IMG/VR virus record: IMGVR_UViG_3300025646_000080
Span: 1-45,993 of that record
Strand: one strand, 5' to 3'
Source: a virus
Length of the DNA: 45,993 bases
In this document: positions 3,539 to 31,804 of the stretch, in pieces
Layout of the letters: each line of letters opens with the position of its first letter
Numbering within the stretch: position 1 is the first letter of the stretch
The notes under the pieces: generated by a model
What the model was told of the DNA's origin: nothing
Databases searched by the model: none
The model's input: the letters and a program-made list of their open reading frames with translations, nothing else
Program-made: the position numbers and the translations under genes

Positions 3539-6078
3539 TGCCTGCTGTAACCCAATTAACACCTAACTTTCTTGGTGGTGTCTCTAAGCAAAACGATGAT
3601 AAGAAGTTAAACGGTCAGCTTACTGAGTGCATTAATGGTTATCCTGATCCTACCTATGGTCTTTTGAAAAGAACTGGGATGAGGTTTACCAATGTACTTA
3701 AGAAAGCAGATGGTTCTAACTTCACTAAAACTGAGCTAGAAGGTGCTGCTTGGTTCTTCATTGAACGTGATGCTGATGGTTCTTATATTGGAGCTATCAA
3801 AGGTACCAATATTTATGTTTGGACAGCAGCTAATGGTACATGGTGTACTGTCACTAACACAGGTACCAGTTACCTAACTGGCACTGGACAAAATGATTAT
3901 CACTTCCGTAGTGTTCAGGATACAACAGTAATTACCAATAAGGCAGTAAATACCGCTATGCAAGCGGCTGGTACCTATGTTGCTAATACTGTAGCTACTG
4001 TTATCCTCACTACTTTAACAGCTAGCTTCGATTACTCTGTTACTATTCAAGGCATTACCTTTACTGCAACAGCTCAATCTAGTACAACATTCGATGATAT
4101 GTTGATCTATGATTCAGGTAATATCAATCTTAGTCATCATCTAATTGATGAAATTGTTGAAGGAATTAAAGGGCAACACACTGCTGGTAATGCTGATTTT
4201 AATGGAACATGGTATATAGAAAGTTACATAAACAGTATCGTTATCAAGCGTTCTACTGGTACTAATCAAGTTAAGACTGATTACTCAGCTGTTACAGGTA
4301 CACCCACTACCTTTACTATCACAGCAAAAGGTGGTATCACTAATGACTCTCTCTTTGCTTTCCAAGATGAAGCAGAGAATGTTACACGTCTTCCTACTGA
4401 ATCGTTCAACGGTCATGCAGTAAAGATCCTCAATAGTGCTGTAGCTGAGGATGATTATCACGTTGAATTTGTAGCTTATGATGGTGTAAAAGGGCGTGGT
4501 TATTGGAAAGAAGCTAGGGCACGTGATGCCTCACCTGGGCTTGATGCTTCTACAATGCCGTATCAATTGGTTAGAACAGGTGCTACTACTTTTGAATTCA
4601 AACCTATTGCATGGACAGCCCGTGCAACTGGTGATGATATAACCAGCACTATCCCATCATTTATAGGTGCTCCTATTACCTGTACTTTCTTCTACAGTAA
4701 TAGATTTGGTGTACTTTCTGAGGATAATATTTTCCTTAGTAGAGCTAATGATCCATTCAACTTCTTTGTTAAATCGGCTCTTACACAAACAGCATCAGAT
4801 CCTATTGATTTGAATGTTGCTAGCATTAGACCTGTTACTTTGTCTGATGTTCTACCATCTCCACAAGGTCTTATTATCTTCAGTGAACGCCAACAGTTCC
4901 AAGTCTTTTCAACAGATGGCAGTGTCTTGACTCCTACATCAACTATTGTCAGGAACATATCTAACTATGAGATGAATACTAACATTGCACCAGTTGATGT
5001 CGGTACTACATCCGCATTTGTCAGTCGTGTATCTGGTTACAGTAAACTATTTACACTTCAACTTCGTGATGTAGAGCAGAACCCAACTGTTGTAGATATC
5101 AGTAAGGTGGTCCTTGAGTGGATCCCAGAGTCTATCAATGATCTCACTGTAAGTCCACAGAACTCAGTGATCATGCTTATTGATAGGGATACGTCTTATC
5201 TTTACTTATTCCGTTACTATAATAATGGAGAAAAAGACCTCTTCCAAGCATGGACTAAATGGCAACTACCTGGCACTATTCAAAGTGCTAAGATCTTGAA
5301 TGACTCAGTGGTGATTGTTTCTCAACATGAGGATGAGTATACCCTTGGTACCATCACCCTTGATGAGATACCCACAGGAGAGGTTGTAGCGGGCTCTAGT
5401 ACTGTTAACGGTAATCCATGCCTAGATATGTTTACACGCCCAGTACAGCCTGCTGTAGGTGTCAATGCGGTGGTGTATGATGAACCGAATGATGTAACCA
5501 AGATCTACGTACCCTTTACACCATTCCAACAACGTGAAGCTGCAATGCTTCTTACTAAACCTTTAGCAGATATCGGTAACACTGCAGCATTGTTAGAGTC
5601 TGATGCTGGTTACTGGGCAGCAGCTACTGAACGTACTGAACCTGGAACTGGTTATCGTTACTTTGAAGTAAAAGGTAATTTTGTACCTTATGCTGATGGT
5701 ATCGTTGTAGGTTATAACTATGAGTTTGATGTAACTCTACCTAAGTTTTACTTTAGACGTAACGAAACTTCTACCGATTTTACAGCAACACTAACTATAT
5801 CTAGAGCTAAGTTCTCTGTTGGTAGGACAGGTGCTGTTACATTTAAGCTACGCTCTACTGGATCTAATGAGTGGTCTGATGTTCAACACGTAGCAGAAGC
5901 TAATTACTATGGATCAGATACTAATCCAGTTCAACCTGAACACCGCTTTATTGTACCTATCCACCAACGTAATACAAATTTTGAATTAAAAGTGACAAGT
6001 AATTTCCCATATCCTGTATCATTGGTTTCAATGATGTGGGAAGGTAACTATTCACCTCGTTTCTATAGGAGGACTTAA
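3538..6078 (+). CDS. Tail tubular protein B / nozzle (gp12-like)
   Basis: This 846-residue protein forms the tail nozzle. Family features include the N-terminal FLGGVSKQNDDKKLNGQLTE and GYPDPTYGLLKRTG segments (T7 gp12 starts with a similar 'xGGVSQQ...NGxxxxxxGLxKRP' pattern). The SERQQFQVFSTDG segment near the middle and a beta-rich C-terminal half also fit. It is slightly longer than T7 gp12 (794). It overlaps gp11 by the TAATG junction and is followed 2 nt later by gp14, so the three tail/core genes look like one transcription unit. Confidence 0.94.
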   Translation: MPAVTQLTPNFLGGVSKQNDDKKLNGQLTECINGYPDPTYGLLKRTGMRFTNVLKKADGSNFTKTELEGAAWFFIERDADGSYIGAIKGTNIYVWTAANGTWCTVTNTGTSYLTGTGQNDYHFRSVQDTTVITNKAVNTAMQAAGTYVANTVATVILTTLTASFDYSVTIQGITFTATAQSSTTFDDMLIYDSGNINLSHHLIDEIVEGIKGQHTAGNADFNGTWYIESYINSIVIKRSTGTNQVKTDYSAVTGTPTTFTITAKGGITNDSLFAFQDEAENVTRLPTESFNGHAVKILNSAVAEDDYHVEFVAYDGVKGRGYWKEARARDASPGLDASTMPYQLVRTGATTFEFKPIAWTARATGDDITSTIPSFIGAPITCTFFYSNRFGVLSEDNIFLSRANDPFNFFVKSALTQTASDPIDLNVASIRPVTLSDVLPSPQGLIIFSERQQFQVFSTDGSVLTPTSTIVRNISNYEMNTNIAPVDVGTTSAFVSRVSGYSKLFTLQLRDVEQNPTVVDISKVVLEWIPESINDLTVSPQNSVIMLIDRDTSYLYLFRYYNNGEKDLFQAWTKWQLPGTIQSAKILNDSVVIVSQHEDEYTLGTITLDEIPTGEVVAGSSTVNGNPCLDMFTRPVQPAVGVNAVVYDEPNDVTKIYVPFTPFQQREAAMLLTKPLADIGNTAALLESDAGYWAAATERTEPGTGYRYFEVKGNFVPYADGIVVGYNYEFDVTLPKFYFRRNETSTDFTATLTISRAKFSVGRTGAVTFKLRSTGSNEWSDVQHVAEANYYGSDTNPVQPEHRFIVPIHQRNTNFELKVTSNFPYPVSLVSMMWEGNYSPRFYRRT

Positions 6079-7298: not shown

Positions 7299-10200
7299 AT
7301 GGCACGCTTAAGACACAACCCCACACGTCCTGATTCCGGGTTTAACCCTATTAGACTCGATAGGTCTGAGATCGCTCGAATGCGGGAAGAGACGGATAGA
7401 ATTATCCGTAACATGGATAGGAATAGAATTGCCGAGTATGAACAAGGCAAGGCTAATCTCCAAGCACTAAGAGATAACGAGGAGTACACTCGAAGAGCAG
7501 AGCAGCGTAACTTTGATGTTCAACAACAGAACATGAAAGCTGAGCTTCTCCAAAATCAACTTGATGTTCAAACCTCCCAAAGACAAGCTGATGTAACTTC
7601 TCAAGCATCACAACAGATCTTTGGTAGCCTTGCTGGCTTCAGTAAAACTGCGGCTGATTTGACTGCTAAACGTGAAGTTGAGCAAGAGAAAAGGGATATC
7701 CAAGCAGGATATATTGCTGCTGTTGTTGATCCAGACTACGCTAAACAGGTTGAGTTTAAGAACCTTGAATCTCAAGTTCTACAGCAATCTGAGCTTTTTG
7801 AAGGTATTCTAAAAACACAAGAAGCAGAAGGTGCGGATCCTGAGGCAATTGCAACAGCTAGGTTTGGTAACCCAGCCTTAACCCATTTCTCCAACAAAGG
7901 TCAAGCTTCGGTTATCATATCTAATCAGGTACCTATTGTTGCTGAAGCATTGATGGGTTCTGACCTGACTATTGATTATAAAGGTCAGAAGGTTTCTCTT
8001 GCTAATGCACGTAGAGATCCTGAGTTGATGGATCGTGTCAACCTTCTTGCTCTACGTACTGTCCTTCAAAGGAATAACCTTGTTGGTCTTGAGGATCAAT
8101 TCTTACTTCCTGGTTTGCAGGAGTTCGAGAAGTATCGTCAACTCCAACATGCTTCAGCTAAGAAGTTTAAGATTGAAGATACTTACGCACAACGTAATGA
8201 TCTCATTGAGAGCACCCTTTATAATAACCCAGACGGTTTAGCTAGGTATGGTCCTACTGCATTCCGTCAGTGGGCAGCTGACCCTAACCTTGGATATAGT
8301 GGAGCACTTGATAAATACGAGAAGCTAGCTACTACTCGGGATCAAAACGGTAACCTCCGTTATTCCATGGAGGAACTAGCTGCACTGGATCTCAAAGGTA
8401 ACGGTAGGACATTTGCTGAAGAGTGGCCAGGTCGTTTTGCTGATATGCAAGAAGCTCGGGTTAAATCACAACTTGAGTATGAAAAGCGTCAGCTTCAAAT
8501 GGATGACCTTACTTTTACTAAAGACTCTGAGCGCATCCTTGAAGGTTTGACTCAAGACCCAACTCAATCTAATGCTGATGCTGCTGTTGAGTTCTTCCGT
8601 AATACATACGGTAAAGTACCAGCTGATATCCTAAGGTTCCAAGCTTCTTATACTGTTGAAGCTGTACAAAAAGCTGAGGGTATTAAAAAGCTAGAAGCTA
8701 TTCCTGATGGTCTTATTACACGTGAAGCTGTTGCTGCTGCACAAGCCCTAGATCCTACAGTAGGTAGGGCATTGGCTGAGCGTTATAAAGCACAAGAAGC
8801 ACGTTACAACCAAGGTATCTATAAAGAGACTGCTGAATCTTTCAAAGCTACTGCTAATGGTGTAACCTCTTTTGGTACTAACAAACCTAACACACCTTCT
8901 AGTGTCTTCCTTCAAGAACGTATGAAGGCTGAATACCGGGCACGTGTTGATCGGGCTGTAGCAGGTGGTATGGACTTCAACCAAGCTGCTACTACTATTG
9001 GTCAAGCTTTGGATGCAGAAGTAAAAGCAGGTGCTAGGGATCCCAATAGCCCTTGGTTCCGTAAACCTGATGCTCCTGGTGGTTCTGCAACATTCCCTAA
9101 CCTTAATAAAGGTGCTCTGTCTGCTGTAGAACAGGCTAACCGTAGGTTCAGTGAACTACAAAAGAACATTCGACAGAATGGTTTGGAAAGGGTTATCAGC
9201 ACTAAGAACTCTATTATCACTGCAGAAGAAGCTCCAGTAATTGCTAGGAATTACGGTAAACCTGGATTCACTATCCCTCAAGATGTGCTAGCTGTTGCCG
9301 GTATGTCTAATGGTTTAGACCCTATGGTTATTATTAACCGTCAATTTGCAGCTCTTGGTCTTCCTGCTTTGCAACCACCCCCGTCTCTACAGACTACTGG
9401 GCAAACAGTAAGCCCATCCTTCCAACGTCTTCTTTATAAGACACCTAGTGCTGATCGCTCTGCACGTGGTCTAGGTTCAGCTAATACGTTTAACCCAACC
9501 ATTGTACCTAATAATCTTGGTATGGTTTATCAACAAGCTGGGCAAGCAGTAGGTGTAAATCCTGCATTCCTTGCAGCGTTGGGTGAAATTGAAAGTACAC
9601 ATAAAGCTGATAGTGTTAGCTATAATGGATCTTCCTTTGGTGTGATGCAGATCAATCGTAGGTCTCATCCTAACTTCTTTGCACAGAATGATTGGAAGAA
9701 CCCACAAGCTAACATCACCTATGGTGCACAGTACTTCAAACAGATGCTTGATAGGTATAAGGATCCTGTAGCAGCTGCTATGGCATATAATGCAGGTCCT
9801 GGTAACTATGATGCTTATGTACGTGGTGAGATGCCTGACGGTCCTAAGAAGACTGAGATGATTAACCACGGTAAGAAGTTCACTAAAGCTTTGTATAAGT
9901 ACGGTGGTTCTACAGCTTCACTTAATAACCCACATCTTATGCGTACAAGCAACAGTAACATGCGTCTTACTTCTAGCGCACTTAACTACATTGGTATGGA
10001 TACAAGCGATGGTCCTGATGCTGGACGTAATGCTTGTGTCTGGGCGTTGAATAAAGTAATGCGTGCTGCTGGTATGGATGTACCTTGGGGTAATAGTCTT
10101 TATGTACCTGAGGTAAAGCGAGTCCTTGACGAACGTGGTAGACGTGTCTCTGGTCCTATGCCAGGAGCTATTGCTATCATGCAGGACAATCATCCAACTG

Positions 10201-24814: not shown

Positions 24815-25468
24815 ATGACTACACACACAGTTAACCTTATCCACATCACCCCCGATGCTGAAGATCTAATTAGTTACATGGCTAGGGTGTCTAACCCTTC
24901 CAATCAAACAAACACTAAGACTAGTGCTAAACTAATTAAGTATCTTATTGATCATCAACATTGGTCGCCCTTTGAAATGGTAAACATGTGTGTCTCTATT
25001 GACACCACTAGGAGTGTAGCAGCACAGATCCTTAGGCATCGTAGCTTCTCCTTCCAGGAGTTCAGTCAACGATACGCTAAGGTAGAGAAACAAGCACAAG
25101 TACCTGAACTACGTAGACAAGATACAAAGAACCGACAGAATAGTATTGATGATCTAGATGAAACAGTAAAGAGAAATCTATCCTATGAGATCTATAAACT
25201 CTATGGTGATTGTTATCGGGTCTATCAAGATCTCCTTGATGCTGGGGTAGCTAAGGAGTGTGCAAGAGAAGTACTCCCAATGGCAGCACCAACTAAACTC
25301 TACATGAATGGTACAATTAGGTCTTGGTTGCATTACTGTGACCTCCGTACCTCTAATGGTACACAAAAAGAACACGCACAGATAGCAGCACAAGTACAAG
25401 ACATTCTCTATTCGCAATTACCAAATGTTTGTGAGGCGATGTGGAACAAAAACTTAAACGAGGCGTAG
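24815..25468 (+). CDS. thyX: Flavin-dependent thymidylate synthase
   Basis: ThyX methylates dUMP to dTMP using methylenetetrahydrofolate and FADH2. The 217-residue length and the signature RHRSFSFQEFSQRY (residues 74-87, the RHRxxSxxxxSxR motif) are diagnostic. HQHWSPFEM near residue 50 and REVLPMAAPTKLYMNGTIRS near residue 160 are also typical. It supplies thymidylate for phage DNA and fits with the ribonucleotide reductase and MazG genes elsewhere. The gene lies after the terminator in its own unit, before the early control block. Confidence 0.97.
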   Translation: MTTHTVNLIHITPDAEDLISYMARVSNPSNQTNTKTSAKLIKYLIDHQHWSPFEMVNMCVSIDTTRSVAAQILRHRSFSFQEFSQRYAKVEKQAQVPELRRQDTKNRQNSIDDLDETVKRNLSYEIYKLYGDCYRVYQDLLDAGVAKECAREVLPMAAPTKLYMNGTIRSWLHYCDLRTSNGTQKEHAQIAAQVQDILYSQLPNVCEAMWNKNLNEA

Positions 25469-26043: not shown

Positions 26044-26168
26044 ACAAACACATCTGTCTGCCGATTATAAATATATCTGCTCGCGCCGCTCACTTCGTTC
26101 GCTCTTCGCTCGCACCGATAAGCGCAACTAATGCATAGTAGACACATGACAAAGCAGCACACACCCGC

Positions 26169-26197
26169 TTGCAAACGGTGCAACGCCGTGCCATACT
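26169..26197 (+). promoter_or_regulatory. Host sigma70-type promoter upstream of the antirestriction candidate
   Basis: TTGCAA (-35, 26169-26174), a 17-nt spacer, and CATACT (-10, 26192-26197), followed by ACGTATGT. The same architecture with the same hexamers recurs at 26863-26891. Host promoters ahead of the first genes are expected because the phage polymerase is not yet made. Confidence 0.65.
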
Positions 26198-26220
26198 ACG
26201 TATGTAACTGAGACACACAC

Positions 26221-26667: not shown

Positions 26668-26847
26668 ATGCAACGACAGAAACTAAAGGATGTCACATTC
26701 ACGCTCAACGCTAAACCAATGCGTACGCTCTTGTGGTGTGACAAGGTACCAAAGGGTAAGCGTAACAAACCTGCTAAGATTAACGGCATTCAGCATCATG
26801 AAATCAGTGATAGCGTAGAGCATGTGTACTATCAACCACTCAACTAA
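26668..26847 (+). CDS. Unknown basic early protein (59 aa)
   Basis: The protein starts MQRQKLKDVTFTLNAKPMRT and has a basic centre (CDKVPKGKRNKPAKING) and an aromatic end (VEHVYYQPLN). I do not recognise it. It lies 9 nt after the ArdA-like gene in the same unit, and the basic charge contrasts with the acidic neighbours. T7 early genes of this size poison host functions, but no role can be read from the sequence. Confidence 0.6.
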   Translation: MQRQKLKDVTFTLNAKPMRTLLWCDKVPKGKRNKPAKINGIQHHEISDSVEHVYYQPLN

Positions 26848-26862
26848 GTGGCACACTACCAC

Positions 26863-26891
26863 TTGCAAAACGCCTCAAGCTGTGCCATACT
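26863..26891 (+). promoter_or_regulatory. Second host sigma70-type promoter (duplicate architecture)
   Basis: TTGCAA (26863-26868), a 17-nt spacer, and CATACT (26886-26891), followed by ACATATGT. It matches the promoter at 26169 in both hexamers, spacer length and the GCCATACTAC(G/A)TATGT core, while the spacers differ. The transcript would carry a leader of about 90 nt that is CA-rich, with CCTCAC repeated several times (26930-26980). Confidence 0.65.
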
Positions 26892-26993
26892 ACATATGTC
26901 GGTGAGGGAAGCAAGAGCATCACCGCTCACAGCCACCTCACAAGCTGTCCACCTCACCACCCAAACCGCCTCACCACCTGCTATCATTAGTTC

Positions 26994-27194
26994 ATGACTG
27001 ACACGCTCAACCGCTCCCATCTCATCTCTGCTCTTTATCACGAGTATCAGTTTCTATGCCATGACGACTTCGATCCTGAGGTTGATCCTACTCCTGACGA
27101 GTACTTGCTGATGCTTCAACATCTCAGCGATGCCGAGCTTGTCAACGAGGCAAGTGCCGATGACTTAGACGAGTTCATTCGCCACTGGCTTTGA
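26994..27194 (+). CDS. Unknown acidic early protein (66 aa)
   Basis: The protein starts MTDTLNRSHLISALYHEYQF, and the rest is very acidic (DDFDPEVDPTPDEYLLMLQH; ASADDLDEFIRHWL). No family is recognised. It is preceded by the second host-type promoter and a CA-rich leader without Shine-Dalgarno, and followed by the first of three paired-hairpin units. An acidic helical protein of this size fits an inhibitor of a host DNA- or RNA-binding protein; that is inference. Confidence 0.65.
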   Translation: MTDTLNRSHLISALYHEYQFLCHDDFDPEVDPTPDEYLLMLQHLSDAELVNEASADDLDEFIRHWL

Positions 27195-27198
27195 CTGT

Positions 27199-27245
27199 TA
27201 CACTAAGGCTAACTTGTTAGCTTTTCTGTAGCACTCAACAGCTAC
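27199..27245 (+). terminator. Early intergenic paired-hairpin unit 1
   Basis: TTACACTAA, then hairpin GCTAA-CTTG-TTAGC (27208-27221), TTTTCT, then hairpin GTAGC (27228-27232) with GCTAC (27241-27245). The first hairpin plus T-run looks like a weak terminator. The conserved second hairpin suggests processing or attenuation, as with RNase III sites between T7 early genes. Confidence 0.65.
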
Positions 27246-27270
27246 ACCAATCCACTTACTTTCTTTTTAG

Positions 27271-27516
27271 ATGTTTAACACCATCGTTCCTGTTCGTTCT
27301 TCTGATGCTGTATATTTCATGACTGCCAATCCTTTGACTGGTGTCGTTAACGTTACCTTCAAAGGTGGCAACAGCTACAAGTATAGCGGTGTTAGCCGTC
27401 GTGCTATCCTCAACCTTCTTGCCAATCCTAACATGTCTCTTGGCTTCTGGGTTAACGCTAACTGTGTGAATACTAAGCGTGCTAGTGTTGACTTCCGCTA
27501 TGCAATTGCTGTCTGA
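27271..27516 (+). CDS. KTSC-domain-like small protein 1
   Basis: The 81 residues fit the KTSC pattern: TGVVNVTFKGGNSYKYSGVS (residues 23-42), then AILNLLANPNMSLGFWVNAN. KTSC is a short beta-rich domain of unknown function found in phages and bacteria. A second gene with the same pattern follows at 27596, so they are probably paralogues from tandem duplication, each flanked by a paired-hairpin unit. No Shine-Dalgarno is seen (TTTCTTTTTAG precedes ATG). Confidence 0.65.
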   Translation: MFNTIVPVRSSDAVYFMTANPLTGVVNVTFKGGNSYKYSGVSRRAILNLLANPNMSLGFWVNANCVNTKRASVDFRYAIAV

Positions 27517-27527
27517 TAGTTGACAGT

Positions 27528-27571
27528 TACACTAAGCCACTTCGGTGGTTTTCTGTAGCTCTCACAGCTAC
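27528..27571 (+). terminator. Early intergenic paired-hairpin unit 2
   Basis: TTACACTAA, then hairpin CCAC-TTCG-GTGG (27537-27548) with a UUCG loop, TTTTCT, then hairpin GTAGC (27555-27559) with GCTAC (27567-27571). The first stem has a different sequence from unit 1 but the same geometry. Confidence 0.68.
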
Positions 27572-27595
27572 GTTTCACATTCACACACGTTTAAC

Positions 27596-27820
27596 ATGTT
27601 CTTCCAACCTTCCAACTTCACCTCTTCCAACATTCGTTCTATCCGTCTCAATCCTTCTACTAACCAAGTGATTGTTCAATTCCTCAACAACGCTAAGACT
27701 TACCTGTACGATAACGTCAACGCTAACGCAATGACTGAGTTCTTCTTTGGTGATTATGAGTCGGTTGGTAAGTTTGTGAACGCTTACTGTAAGGGTAATC
27801 GTTACACTGTGATTGGTTGA
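27596..27820 (+). CDS. KTSC-domain-like small protein 2
   Basis: The protein starts MFFQPSNFTSSNIRSIRLNP, then TNQVIVQFLNNAKTYLYDNV and AMTEFFFGDYESVGKFVNAY. The order (beta strand, FxNxxxYxYxxV-like, helix, xxGKFVNxx) parallels the KTSC-like gene at 27271. I chose ATG 27596; an upstream TTG/GTG-type extension would run through hairpin unit 2. Function unknown. Confidence 0.65.
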   Translation: MFFQPSNFTSSNIRSIRLNPSTNQVIVQFLNNAKTYLYDNVNANAMTEFFFGDYESVGKFVNAYCKGNRYTVIG

Positions 27821-27831
27821 TCTTCTGTAGA

Positions 27832-27875
27832 TTATACTAAAGCCTACGGGCTTTTCTATAGTCCTCAGTGGCTAT
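27832..27875 (+). terminator. Early intergenic paired-hairpin unit 3
   Basis: TTATACTAA, then hairpin AAGCC-TACG-GGCTT (27840-27853), TTCT, then ATAG-T-CC (27858-27864) pairing with GGCTAT (27870-27875). The second stem differs from units 1 and 2, yet both sides changed together, which supports selection for structure. Confidence 0.65.
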
Positions 27876-27893
27876 GTCCTTTGCTTTTAACTA

Positions 27894-28214
27894 ATGCTGT
27901 TCTACACTGAAGAACTTACCAAAGCTCTTGAAGAACGTTTCGATGACATAGACGAAATCTACGATATTGCCAACCATGGTTGTGCCATTGGTGTGTCTGG
28001 TTTTGTATATTATCACGGGACAACTAAGTTCTTCCATGAGTTTGAAGATGACGTGGAAGATGTATGTCATGACACACTTGGTGAAGACTTTATGGAGCAA
28101 CTCTCCAAAGGTACGACTAGCATTGCCAACCTCATTCAGGTGATGGTTTGGCATACTATCGAGACGTATTGTCAACGAGTTATGAATGATGAAGAGGAGG
28201 CAAAGTACGCCTAA
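27894..28214 (+). CDS. Unknown acidic early protein (106 aa), possible DUF7222-like
   Basis: The protein starts MLFYTEELTKALEERFDDID, and IGVSGFVYYHGTTKFFHEFE in the middle is followed by acidic helices (EDFMEQLSKGTTSIANLIQV). The GxSGFxYYxxTxxFF segment recalls a small phage domain (DUF7222-like, from memory and not certain). It ends with an acidic tail (NDEEEAKYA). It follows hairpin unit 3, with no Shine-Dalgarno. Confidence 0.65.
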   Translation: MLFYTEELTKALEERFDDIDEIYDIANHGCAIGVSGFVYYHGTTKFFHEFEDDVEDVCHDTLGEDFMEQLSKGTTSIANLIQVMVWHTIETYCQRVMNDEEEAKYA

Positions 28215-29387: not shown

Positions 29388-29487
29388 ACAATTCGATGAG
29401 CTTGCTGAGGACTATCCTGAGCTTGCACAGTTGATTCACATTCACGACGTTAAGGAGGATTGTATTGACGACACAAGCCGAGATTGA
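29368..29487 (+). CDS. Acidic micro-protein (39 aa) overlapping the RNA polymerase start
   Basis: The protein starts MSLITSEQFDELAEDYPELA and ends HIHDVKEDCIDDTSRD. It overlaps the previous gene by 20 nt and the RNA polymerase gene by 23 nt. The strong AAGGAGG box for the polymerase lies inside it. Translation through this ORF could open the polymerase start. Confidence 0.55.
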   Translation: MSLITSEQFDELAEDYPELAQLIHIHDVKEDCIDDTSRD

Positions 29488-31804
29488 TGCACAGATTGCG
29501 TTCGAGCGTGAAGCTATCTCACAGGGGCTACAGAAGCTACGTAAGAACACAAACGACTTAGAAGATAAGAGCTACGCTTCAGCTAGTGTATACGGTAACT
29601 CATCTATTGATGCACTGCTACCTAAGCTTTCTGAGTACATCGAAGAGACAACACATGATAGGTTGAAGCGTGGTACAGGGCATCAATTTCAACTCATTAA
29701 AACTTATGTAACACGTCTTGAGTCATCAGCATCTGCTGCCATTGCGTTAAAGATTACCTTTGATAAGGTATTCTCATACAAAGATAAAGCCAATCAACTT
29801 GTTAACGTTTGTGATGCCATAGGTAAAGCGGTTGAGGATGAGTGTCAAATCAGGCACTACGAAACTCATGCACCTGGGTTACTTGCTACGTTAAAGAAGA
29901 ACTACTGGCATAAATCTATTGGTACCCAGCAAAAGATGGTGGTTATCCGTACCCTCATGAACCGCTACAACGTCAAGAAGTGGGAGTGTTGGGGGCGTGA
30001 TAATCGCGTTAAGTTAGGTGCTTGGCTGCTAGATTGCATCATGGTGACTAGTGGTTGGTTTGAGAAGTTCATGCAACAAGAGGGCAAAAGCAAGGTACAC
30101 TATGTCGTACCAAGTGCTCTTTTCATGGACATCAAGGACGCACTGATGAAAGAGGCTGAACTATTTAGTCCTCTTGCATGGCCAATGCTTATACCTCCAA
30201 ATGATTGGACTAATGAGCAAGCTGGTGGGTACCTGCTGAACGAGGTGATGAGGGGTCATGATCTGGTGCGTCGTGGACATCACCCATGTATACAGGGGGA
30301 GAAACCACTGGAGTTTTTGAACAAGATCCAGAAGGTAGCCTACTGTTTAAATCCCTTCATTGTAGAAGTAGCTGAGAAGTTAGATGAGAAAGGAATTCAA
30401 GTAGGTAAATTTCTACCTATAATAGAACATCCTTTACCACCTAAACCTGTAGACATTGCAGAGAATGCAGAGTCTAGAAAGAGCTACAGAAGAGAGGCAG
30501 CTGAAGTAAGAAATAGACAAGCTCAAGAGTTTAGAAAGTCATGTAGAACTCGCATGACAATGGAAGCAGTAAAGAGGTTTAAGGATAAAGAGAAGTTTTA
30601 TATTCCGTGGTCTTTTGACTATAGAGGTAGAGCTTATCCTATACCTGCTTTCTTAACTCCTCAAGATACAGACTTTGGAAAAAGTTTATTGAGAAGTTAT
30701 GAAGAAGCCTACATGACTCCTGAAGCTGAGGACTGGTTAGCCTTTCAAGTAGCTACTACATGGGGTCTTGATAAAGCACCTATGAAGGAGCGACTGGAGT
30801 GGGTAGCTAACAATATCACATTCATCAGCCAACTAGCATTAGATCCTATTGGGCGTCTACCTGACTGGGAGCAAGCTGATGAGCCTTGGCAATTCTTAGC
30901 AGCTTGTGAGGAGTACTACCATTGTGTCGTAGTTTGTGACAGACAGTTCACTGGATTGTTTGTCGCTACAGATGCTACGTGTAGTGGTCTTCAGATCCTA
31001 GCAGGATTAGCAAGAGATAAGTCTACTGCTCAGCTTGTTAATGTCTTACCTAGTGATAAACCACAGGATGCATACAAGGTAGTAGCTGAGACTGCTAAGC
31101 CTTATTGTCCTGCTTCTATTCAACCTCACATCGACAGAAAGACGGTCAAACGAGTAGTCATGACCGTACCTTACAATGCTAAACCTTATTCCAATCGTGG
31201 GTATATCAAGGACGCACTAAAAGAAAAGGGTATTGAGATTGATAAGGATGATCTCACCAAGACTGTTACAGCAGTTAGAGACGCAATGAACGTTGTTGTT
31301 CCTGGTCCTATGGCTGTGATGGATTGGATTGAGAAGGAAGTCGGTAAGGCTATTGATAGCGGTAAGGAGTCGTTGACTTGGACTACACCATCAGGGTTTG
31401 TCGTTACTCAACGTCTAATGAAGAAACGTACAATGGATCTGCAGCTACAGCTGTTGGGTCGTTGTAAGGTACGTGTCGCTGTTGAGGATGACGATAAGGT
31501 GGACAAGCTACACCACAAGAATGCAACTGCTCCTAATCTTATCCACAGCCTAGATGCAAGCTTGTTACATTTGTCTACCCTACGCTTCAATGCCCCTGTT
31601 GCTTTAATCCACGATTCAGTATTGTGTCGTGCTACTGATATGTCTACTCTCAGTACACTTGTGAGAGAGACCTACATGCACCTATTTGCGGAGCATGATT
31701 ACTTGAATGACTTCGCCCAACAGATTGGGGCGGAGACTGATCCACCGATCATCGGAGACTTAGAACCTGAGTCCGTGATCGAATCCACCTACTTTTTTTG
31801 TTAA
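29465..31804 (+). CDS. Single-subunit phage RNA polymerase (T7 gp1-like)
   Basis: This 779-residue polymerase transcribes the middle and late genes. T7 RNAP is 883 residues; the shorter length is like cyanopodovirus polymerases. Motif A is ATDATCSGLQILAGLARD with catalytic Asp 503. Motif B is KRVVMTVPYNAK with Lys 562 and Tyr 570. Motif C is HDSV with catalytic Asp 717. DYRGRAYPIPAF is also characteristic. The start is TTG at 29465, supported by a perfect AAGGAGG at 29454-29460 with a 4-6 nt gap; no ATG fits. A weak start codon with a strong ribosome site may set the polymerase level. It overlaps SSB by one base. Confidence 0.97.
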   Translation: MTTQAEIDAQIAFEREAISQGLQKLRKNTNDLEDKSYASASVYGNSSIDALLPKLSEYIEETTHDRLKRGTGHQFQLIKTYVTRLESSASAAIALKITFDKVFSYKDKANQLVNVCDAIGKAVEDECQIRHYETHAPGLLATLKKNYWHKSIGTQQKMVVIRTLMNRYNVKKWECWGRDNRVKLGAWLLDCIMVTSGWFEKFMQQEGKSKVHYVVPSALFMDIKDALMKEAELFSPLAWPMLIPPNDWTNEQAGGYLLNEVMRGHDLVRRGHHPCIQGEKPLEFLNKIQKVAYCLNPFIVEVAEKLDEKGIQVGKFLPIIEHPLPPKPVDIAENAESRKSYRREAAEVRNRQAQEFRKSCRTRMTMEAVKRFKDKEKFYIPWSFDYRGRAYPIPAFLTPQDTDFGKSLLRSYEEAYMTPEAEDWLAFQVATTWGLDKAPMKERLEWVANNITFISQLALDPIGRLPDWEQADEPWQFLAACEEYYHCVVVCDRQFTGLFVATDATCSGLQILAGLARDKSTAQLVNVLPSDKPQDAYKVVAETAKPYCPASIQPHIDRKTVKRVVMTVPYNAKPYSNRGYIKDALKEKGIEIDKDDLTKTVTAVRDAMNVVVPGPMAVMDWIEKEVGKAIDSGKESLTWTTPSGFVVTQRLMKKRTMDLQLQLLGRCKVRVAVEDDDKVDKLHHKNATAPNLIHSLDASLLHLSTLRFNAPVALIHDSVLCRATDMSTLSTLVRETYMHLFAEHDYLNDFAQQIGAETDPPIIGDLEPESVIESTYFFC
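30277..30302 (+). repeat. 14-bp ACATCACCCATGTA site followed by GGGGGAGA (copy 2 of 2)
   Basis: Identical in 14 bp to 24570-24583, and likewise followed by a G-run and AGA. It lies within the RNA polymerase coding frame (encodes HHPCIQGE), so the match may be chance. Confidence 0.3.

Follow-up and report, generated by a model that had tools for sequence, protein, structure and literature searches.

What function is served by three structured units that punctuate the early genes of a T7-like cyanophage? Phages of the T7 type that infect Synechococcus and Prochlorococcus are abundant; the organisation of their early transcripts is little known, and no processing sites were given in the open-licence literature searched. 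The locus lies in a single virus record of 45,993 bases, analysed over its whole length and referred to here as the window. The record was identified as a T7-like cyanophage from its gene content, which includes a T7-like RNA polymerase gene (29465-31804) and a flavin-dependent thymidylate synthase gene (24815-25468), and from its closest relatives, the Synechococcus phages S-RIP1, S-CBP3 and S-CBP4 (Autographiviridae). The units lie among small plus-strand ORFs 5' of the RNA polymerase gene. An ORF of phrog_734, function unassigned in PHROG, ends at unit 1 (26994-27194); a KTSC-like early ORF (phrog_7365, 27271-27516) separates units 1 and 2; a KTSC-domain early ORF (PF13619 / phrog_7365, 27596-27820) separates units 2 and 3; and a DUF7222 early ORF (27894-28214) lies 3' of unit 3. 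The two adjacent paralogous KTSC-type genes at 27271-27820 have one unit apiece, which suggests that gene and unit may duplicate as a module. Two further features were recorded in the window: a Glutamine-II riboswitch aptamer (RF01704, 942-1046, plus strand), carried by this T7-like cyanophage genome and scoring above the gathering cutoff at 37.5 bits, and a 64-nt direct repeat 3' of the thymidylate synthase gene (26149-26212 and 26843-26906, 72% identity, spacing 694 nt).

The preliminary description had presented each unit as a leader, TTAYACTAA, followed by two paired hairpins. A sequence check found all three units and every named stem as written, each behind the stop codon of a gene (TGA at 27192-27194, 27514-27516 and 27818-27820). 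The leader reads TTACACTAA at 27198-27206 and 27527-27535 and TTATACTAA at 27832-27840; by itself it was not enriched in the window (22 one-mismatch sites versus 27 expected). Hairpin 1 has the core that had been described, but it continues outward: beyond a 2x2 CU/UC loop come lower stems that had been overlooked, TGTTACA/TGTAGCA, AGTTACA/TGTAGCT and GATTATA/TATAGTC in units 1, 2 and 3, and then a 1x1 mismatch. Hairpins 1 and 2 share one strand, B (URUAGNN), which can pair either with strand A upstream or with strand C downstream, the two pairings being mutually exclusive.

Unit 1 occupies 27192-27246 on the plus strand; it opens with the stop TGA and closes with strand C. It scored 59.9 bits with R1, a covariance model whose 47 training units include the three of the window, and 63.1 bits (E 5.6e-15) with model R2. 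Strand A (TGTTACA, 27196-27202) is assigned to partner B by fold and covariation. The internal loop, CT at 27203-27204 opposite TC at 27225-27226, parts the upper stem AAGGCTAA-CTTG-TTAGCTTT (27205-27224) from A and B, and beyond a C-C mismatch (27195/27234) TGA 27192-27194 and TCA 27235-27237 add three more pairs. Strand B (TGTAGCA, 27227-27233) has A as its predicted partner in intact RNA and strand C (GCTACA, 27241-27246), the 3' arm of hairpin 2, when A is unavailable; the intact RNA gave a computed probability of 0.999 for A:B, and the RNA cut in silico gave the same value for B:C.

Units 2 and 3 have the same layout, also on the plus strand. Unit 2 (27521-27572; R1 67.5 bits, R2 68.5 bits) begins with a TGA at 27521-27523 that is distinct from the gene's own stop at 27514-27516. 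Strand A, AGTTACA (27525-27531), is followed by CT, the upper stem AAGCCAC-TTCG-GTGGTTT (27534-27551) by TC, and then come strand B TGTAGCT (27554-27560), TCA (27562-27564) and strand C AGCTACG (27566-27572). Unit 3 (27825-27876; R1 59.7 bits, R2 61.3 bits) consists of CTG (27825-27827), strand A GATTATA (27830-27836) with CT, the upper stem AAAGCC-TACG-GGCTTT (27839-27854) with TC, strand B TATAGTC (27857-27863), CAG (27866-27868) and strand C GGCTATG (27870-27876). It differs from units 1 and 2 by a triple change across the strands, C/G/C to T/A/T. Model R1, with which these three score 60-68 bits, gave no further unit in the window.

Pattern scans of IMG/VR and model searches gathered 129 matches, 107 of them distinct, in cyanophage contigs and in five reference genomes: S-RIP1, S-CBP3, S-CBP4, KBS-P-1A (with S-RIP2) and MedDCM-OCT-S04-C24. 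The covariance search for relatives that had been proposed was productive with the 47-unit model, which also matched members retrieved without any RNA criterion, and the absence of family members from related genomes, named earlier as the outcome that would speak against the idea, is contradicted by these genomes. Every member follows a stop codon, and most are found near small genes with a KTSC domain, 5' of the phage RNA polymerase; units also adjoin DUF7222, antirestriction-like and unrelated genes. To keep the RNA itself out of the selection, 77 loci were retrieved by KTSC protein only; of the 73 searched, 25 contained a unit of the kind described here (class 1), 44 a class 2 unit (below) and four neither, so that 69/73 had one or the other. 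Units are also present in L192, a 64.6-kb phage whose tested proteins had no PHROG match, and the element may reach beyond T7-like phages. L192 has a third unit at 10017-10080 (CTGCA / TGCAGAG / CTCTGC) that the models did not catch.

The RNA family is undescribed: none of 4227 Rfam models matched the units at gathering cutoff, a relaxed search gave chance-level matches only, and no account of such cyanophage sites was found in the open-licence literature searched. Conserved structured RNAs known from cyanophages and marine cyanobacteria include manA, wcaG, PhotoRC-II, Cyano-1, Cyano-2 and Downstream-peptide (PMC2864571), and none of these matches the units in the Rfam searches. Plain BLAST of one unit returned near-identical phages only, so sequence search does not reveal the family; a loose IMG/VR pattern was flooded by chance matches. 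No host copies turned up when 84,980 genomes of bacteria and archaea were scanned with a strict pattern, although diverged copies could escape such a scan. Several reference T7-like cyanophages (S-SBP1, S-TIP37, P-SSP7, P-GSP1, Syn5 and P60) gave no convincing model match, and the element is therefore not essential to T7-like cyanophages.

Other structured elements were seen in this group. One (CTGATCCGTTCAAGCGGG...GGCAAGGTGCGAACCCTTGCC...CACGCACTGAGCGGGG), mostly directly 3' of a stop codon, occurs in S-SBP1, S-TIP37, MedDCM S45-C4 and L192, at early intergenic spots where others carry the three-strand unit; its positions are L304:1319-1395, L305:about 1460-1515, L308:3635-3710 and L192:about 9310-9420, and neither Rfam nor ARAGORN gave a call for it in S-SBP1, S-TIP37 or S45-C4. 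Hairpins resembling a tRNA T-arm (GGTTCRANTCC) stand in the early leader of unit-less phages, at L304:585-635 (S-SBP1), L307:620-650 and 1015-1045 (P-SSP7) and L308:2925-2950; they are possibly an RNase P/Z-type processing alternative.

Comparison of the members defined the common architecture. The A:B hairpin is imperfect and about 20 layers long, with UGA/UCA, a 1x1 mismatch, 7 bp, a 2x2 loop of CU opposite UC, 6-8 bp and usually a UNCG loop. Strand A (UGA-n-NNY-UAYA) overlaps or trails the upstream stop codon, strand B reads URUA-GNN-n-UCA, and strand C (NNCUAY), 3-10 nt beyond B, has complementarity to the segment of B that A also uses. The UGA is often the stop codon itself, and in some units UGA/UCA is swapped for UGU/ACA or UAA/UUA. 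CU lies opposite UC in 88/96 units, some members have a 1x1 rather than a 2x2 internal loop, and the 1x1 mismatch site is paired in just 4/96 units versus 16.3 expected.

Both helices bear signs of selection. Across the whole extended hairpin, 97.6% of cells in the 47-row alignment were paired, compared with 79.7% in shuffles and at most 51% in slid versions; for the upper stem plus hairpin 2 the value in the 47-row alignment was 94.3% versus 76.5%. The upper stem had 99.6% of cells paired, with double changes in 5/6 pairs. At A:B positions never fixed by any search pattern, pairing was found for A-2:B7 in 84/96 units (58 when shuffled), for A-3:B8 in 88/96 (59) and for A-5:B10 in 87/96 (62). 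B7:C1, likewise at positions that the patterns left free, was paired in 95/96 versus 69; it was already a pair in the search model, whereas A:B was not in that model. A-2:B7, A-3:B8 and B7:C1 were still significant in 29 and in 11 dissimilar representatives; with the smallest set, neither the mismatch nor UGA/UCA varied enough for covariation testing. Whole helices were replaced across A/B/C, with TACA/TGTA/CTAC, TATA/TATA/CTAT (window unit 3), TGCA/TGCA/CTGC (S-CBP3, L127:3668; L192:9672) and CTCA/TGAG/CCTC (L182:8236). A-1 is U in 83/96 and C2 is always C, both pairing with an invariant G, so it is pairing and not repeat identity that is conserved. At the level of sequence comparison, the A:B and B:C pairings were both shown to be preserved by compensatory change. 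The earlier proposal of selected RNA structure is thereby strongly supported, the compensatory changes extending across dissimilar members. The reading of TAYACT as a sigma-70 -10 box was rejected, since its bases covary with strands B and C; a promoter pattern scan found no excess of promoters, and no tRNA was found.

The same layout recurs with other sequences. Class 2, recognised at loci lacking a match to the covariance model, has unrelated helix sequence (CTCTC/GAGGG/CCCTC) and reads UGAC-N(C/U)UCUC, mismatch, 7-10 bp upper stem, mismatch, GAGGGN-CUCA-CCCUC; it lies 5' of the KTSC gene in P-SSP7-related phages. A third version, TGATTATTC / GAGTAATCA / TTACTC, was found in L397. Over 369 kb of protein-retrieved loci and reference early regions, a sequence-free three-strand descriptor matched 55 times on the coding strand and 16 times on the opposite strand, against 4 matches in shuffles, duplicate loci being counted. 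Within the window alone the strict descriptor gave 2 matches with no separation from window shuffles, and a loose one was non-specific, so that the weight rests on the homologues.

Folding energies were then compared for the alternative structures. With the nearest-neighbour model, the A:B hairpin was more stable than the hairpin 1 core plus hairpin 2 in 102/102 units, by a median of 5.1 kcal/mol; median P(A:B) was 0.999 in intact RNA, and median P(B:C) was 0.999 without the 5' side. In class 2 the extended fold won in 18/21 units (median 3.0 kcal/mol), hairpin 2 being lower in energy in the other 3/21. For the intact RNA, A:B is thus the predicted ground state; B:C is predicted to form only once A is removed or occupied. 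The 'paired hairpins' described earlier are accordingly the wrong picture for intact RNA: the two are alternatives with a common strand, and hairpin 2 is unformed in the predicted ground state. Since B:C is selected yet rarely the ground state, some event must remove or occupy A. That event could be either cleavage or the presence of a ribosome. We prefer cleavage, because the extended hairpin matches T3/T7 RNase III sites in size, mismatch, loop, upper stem and position.

We therefore favour, with a probability of roughly 0.55, the reading that the units are mRNA processing sites of the same type as the RNase III sites of T7, each with an added refolding arm. An equivalent of the T7 sites had been suggested before; architecture and position support it, and cleavage is argued by analogy. 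Host RNA polymerase presumably makes a polycistronic early transcript. Host RNase III would cut it on the 3' strand at the internal loop, leaving the upstream mRNA with a short stable hairpin at its 3' end. The downstream mRNA would start with B, which could exchange A for C; hairpin 2 would then form no more than 1-2 nt from the newly made 5' terminus and guard it against 5'-end-dependent decay by RNase E/J. The early transcript would in this way be split into short mRNAs with both ends capped. A 3'-side cut that lets the new 5' end refold would also account for hairpin 2 lying directly next to the internal loop and having a strand in common with it. At T7-type sites RNase III usually makes a single cut, on the internal loop's 3' side. 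RNase III genes are found in all sequenced cyanobacteria, and both RNase III proteins of Synechococcus PCC 7002 cleave many E. coli RNase III substrates, at sites that are not always identical (PMC10989914); the cut position in the units is a guess, because cyanobacterial sites may differ from those of E. coli. According to the same study, Synechococcus PCC 7002 stays viable when its RNase III genes are absent. More tentatively, and at somewhat less than even odds, we propose a combined cut-and-refold design in which B would be half of the nuclease substrate and then half of the protective 5' hairpin, so that one cut seals both ends, and in which T7-like cyanophages would have kept this logic while replacing all three strands together, in at least two sequence classes.

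The main rival to a cut is a ribosome-gated switch without cleavage, which we regard as unlikely, though far from negligible. A ribosome terminating at the UGA or a little before it would cover A and give B:C, its absence would give A:B, and translation of the upstream and downstream genes would be coupled. The stop codon lies exactly 7 nt before TAYACT in 57/98 units (most others at -5 to -19), the UGA is itself within the A:B hairpin, and folding gives B:C when A is unavailable, all of which suits such a switch. However, about 25 units, window units 2 and 3 included, have the real stop 9-16 nt upstream and mostly keep the -7 to -5 pairing (UGU/ACA, UAA/UUA). Ribosome-binding sites and start codons usually fall some 20-35 nt past C, and in neither state are they visibly hidden; a simple switch has no need of the conserved CU/UC loop and 1x1 mismatch.

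Less probable again is the action of another nuclease, RNase E cutting the UCU linker between the hairpins as single strand, or hairpins that merely stabilise the 3' and 5' ends of the mRNAs. Host RNase E is raised by P-SSP7 infection (PMC10989914), and the linker is short and conserved; in the predicted ground state, however, it forms the internal loop of one hairpin and is not single-stranded, and independent stabilisers would need no common strand. We give very little credence to a binding site for an RNA-binding protein, for example in autoregulation by the flanking KTSC proteins: the units lie mainly around KTSC genes and the CU/UC loop is nearly invariant, but the helix sequence can be replaced wholesale, and the units next to other kinds of gene and in L192 do not fit a KTSC regulator. 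Weakest are intrinsic (graded) terminators between the early genes, the other reading offered before: TTTTCT follows the upper stem in window units 1-3, but a GC-rich hairpin with a direct U-tract was rejected because at least five T occur in the 8 nt past the upper stem in 7/96 units only, the commonest 3' flank is CTC-TCTGTAG, and termination would not select the lower stem and the A/B/C triple.

The family offers unusually clear evidence for two mutually exclusive helices that are both selected, and a single unit RNA with a single enzyme is enough to put the question of early-transcript organisation to direct test. Refolding, if true, would be a simple natural design for processing polycistronic RNA while protecting its products, and a usable intercistronic part for cyanobacterial synthetic biology.

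The units were compared with the early T7/T3 sites R0.3, R0.5, R1, R1.1 and R1.3. Both are imperfect hairpins of some 20-22 layers, about two helical turns, with a lower stem that often has a 1x1 mismatch, an internal loop, a similar upper stem and a small loop; both sit in the gaps between early genes, close to or at the stop codon of the preceding gene, in hosts that possess RNase III. T3 R1, an annotated RNase III stem-loop, starts 3 nt past the end of the upstream gene (R0.5 and R1 both start at or just past the stop codon) and folds as 5 bp, 1x1, 5 bp, 2x3, 9 bp and a tetraloop, compared with 3 bp, 1x1, 7 bp, 2x2 and 6-8 bp in the units. The helix of the units is slightly shorter, the internal loop is smaller (2x2, some 1x1, versus 2x3), and UNCG loops are usual, unlike in T7/T3 sites. 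As model R2 had no match in the T7 or T3 records and cleavage is deduced by analogy, we describe the units as resembling the T7 RNase III site in anatomy and do not claim membership of that class. The units further differ in the covarying extra strand C, a second partner for the 3' half of the lower stem; 9/10 of the T3/T7 early sites examined show no such arm and no comparably strong downstream hairpin, T7 R1.1 being a possible exception, so that this comparison gave no firm precedent for the refolding arm. In T7 (L309) a possible 5' hairpin at 5888-5910 (ATTGACC...GGTTAAT) would be exposed after the R1.1 RNase III cut; it overlaps promoter phi1.1B and may be a coincidence. Transcription attenuators likewise have three strands and two alternative helices with a common middle strand. 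Unlike attenuators, most units have no U-tract terminator and no leader peptide or ligand domain was seen, and the units sit after a gene within the early cluster rather than only ahead of an operon.
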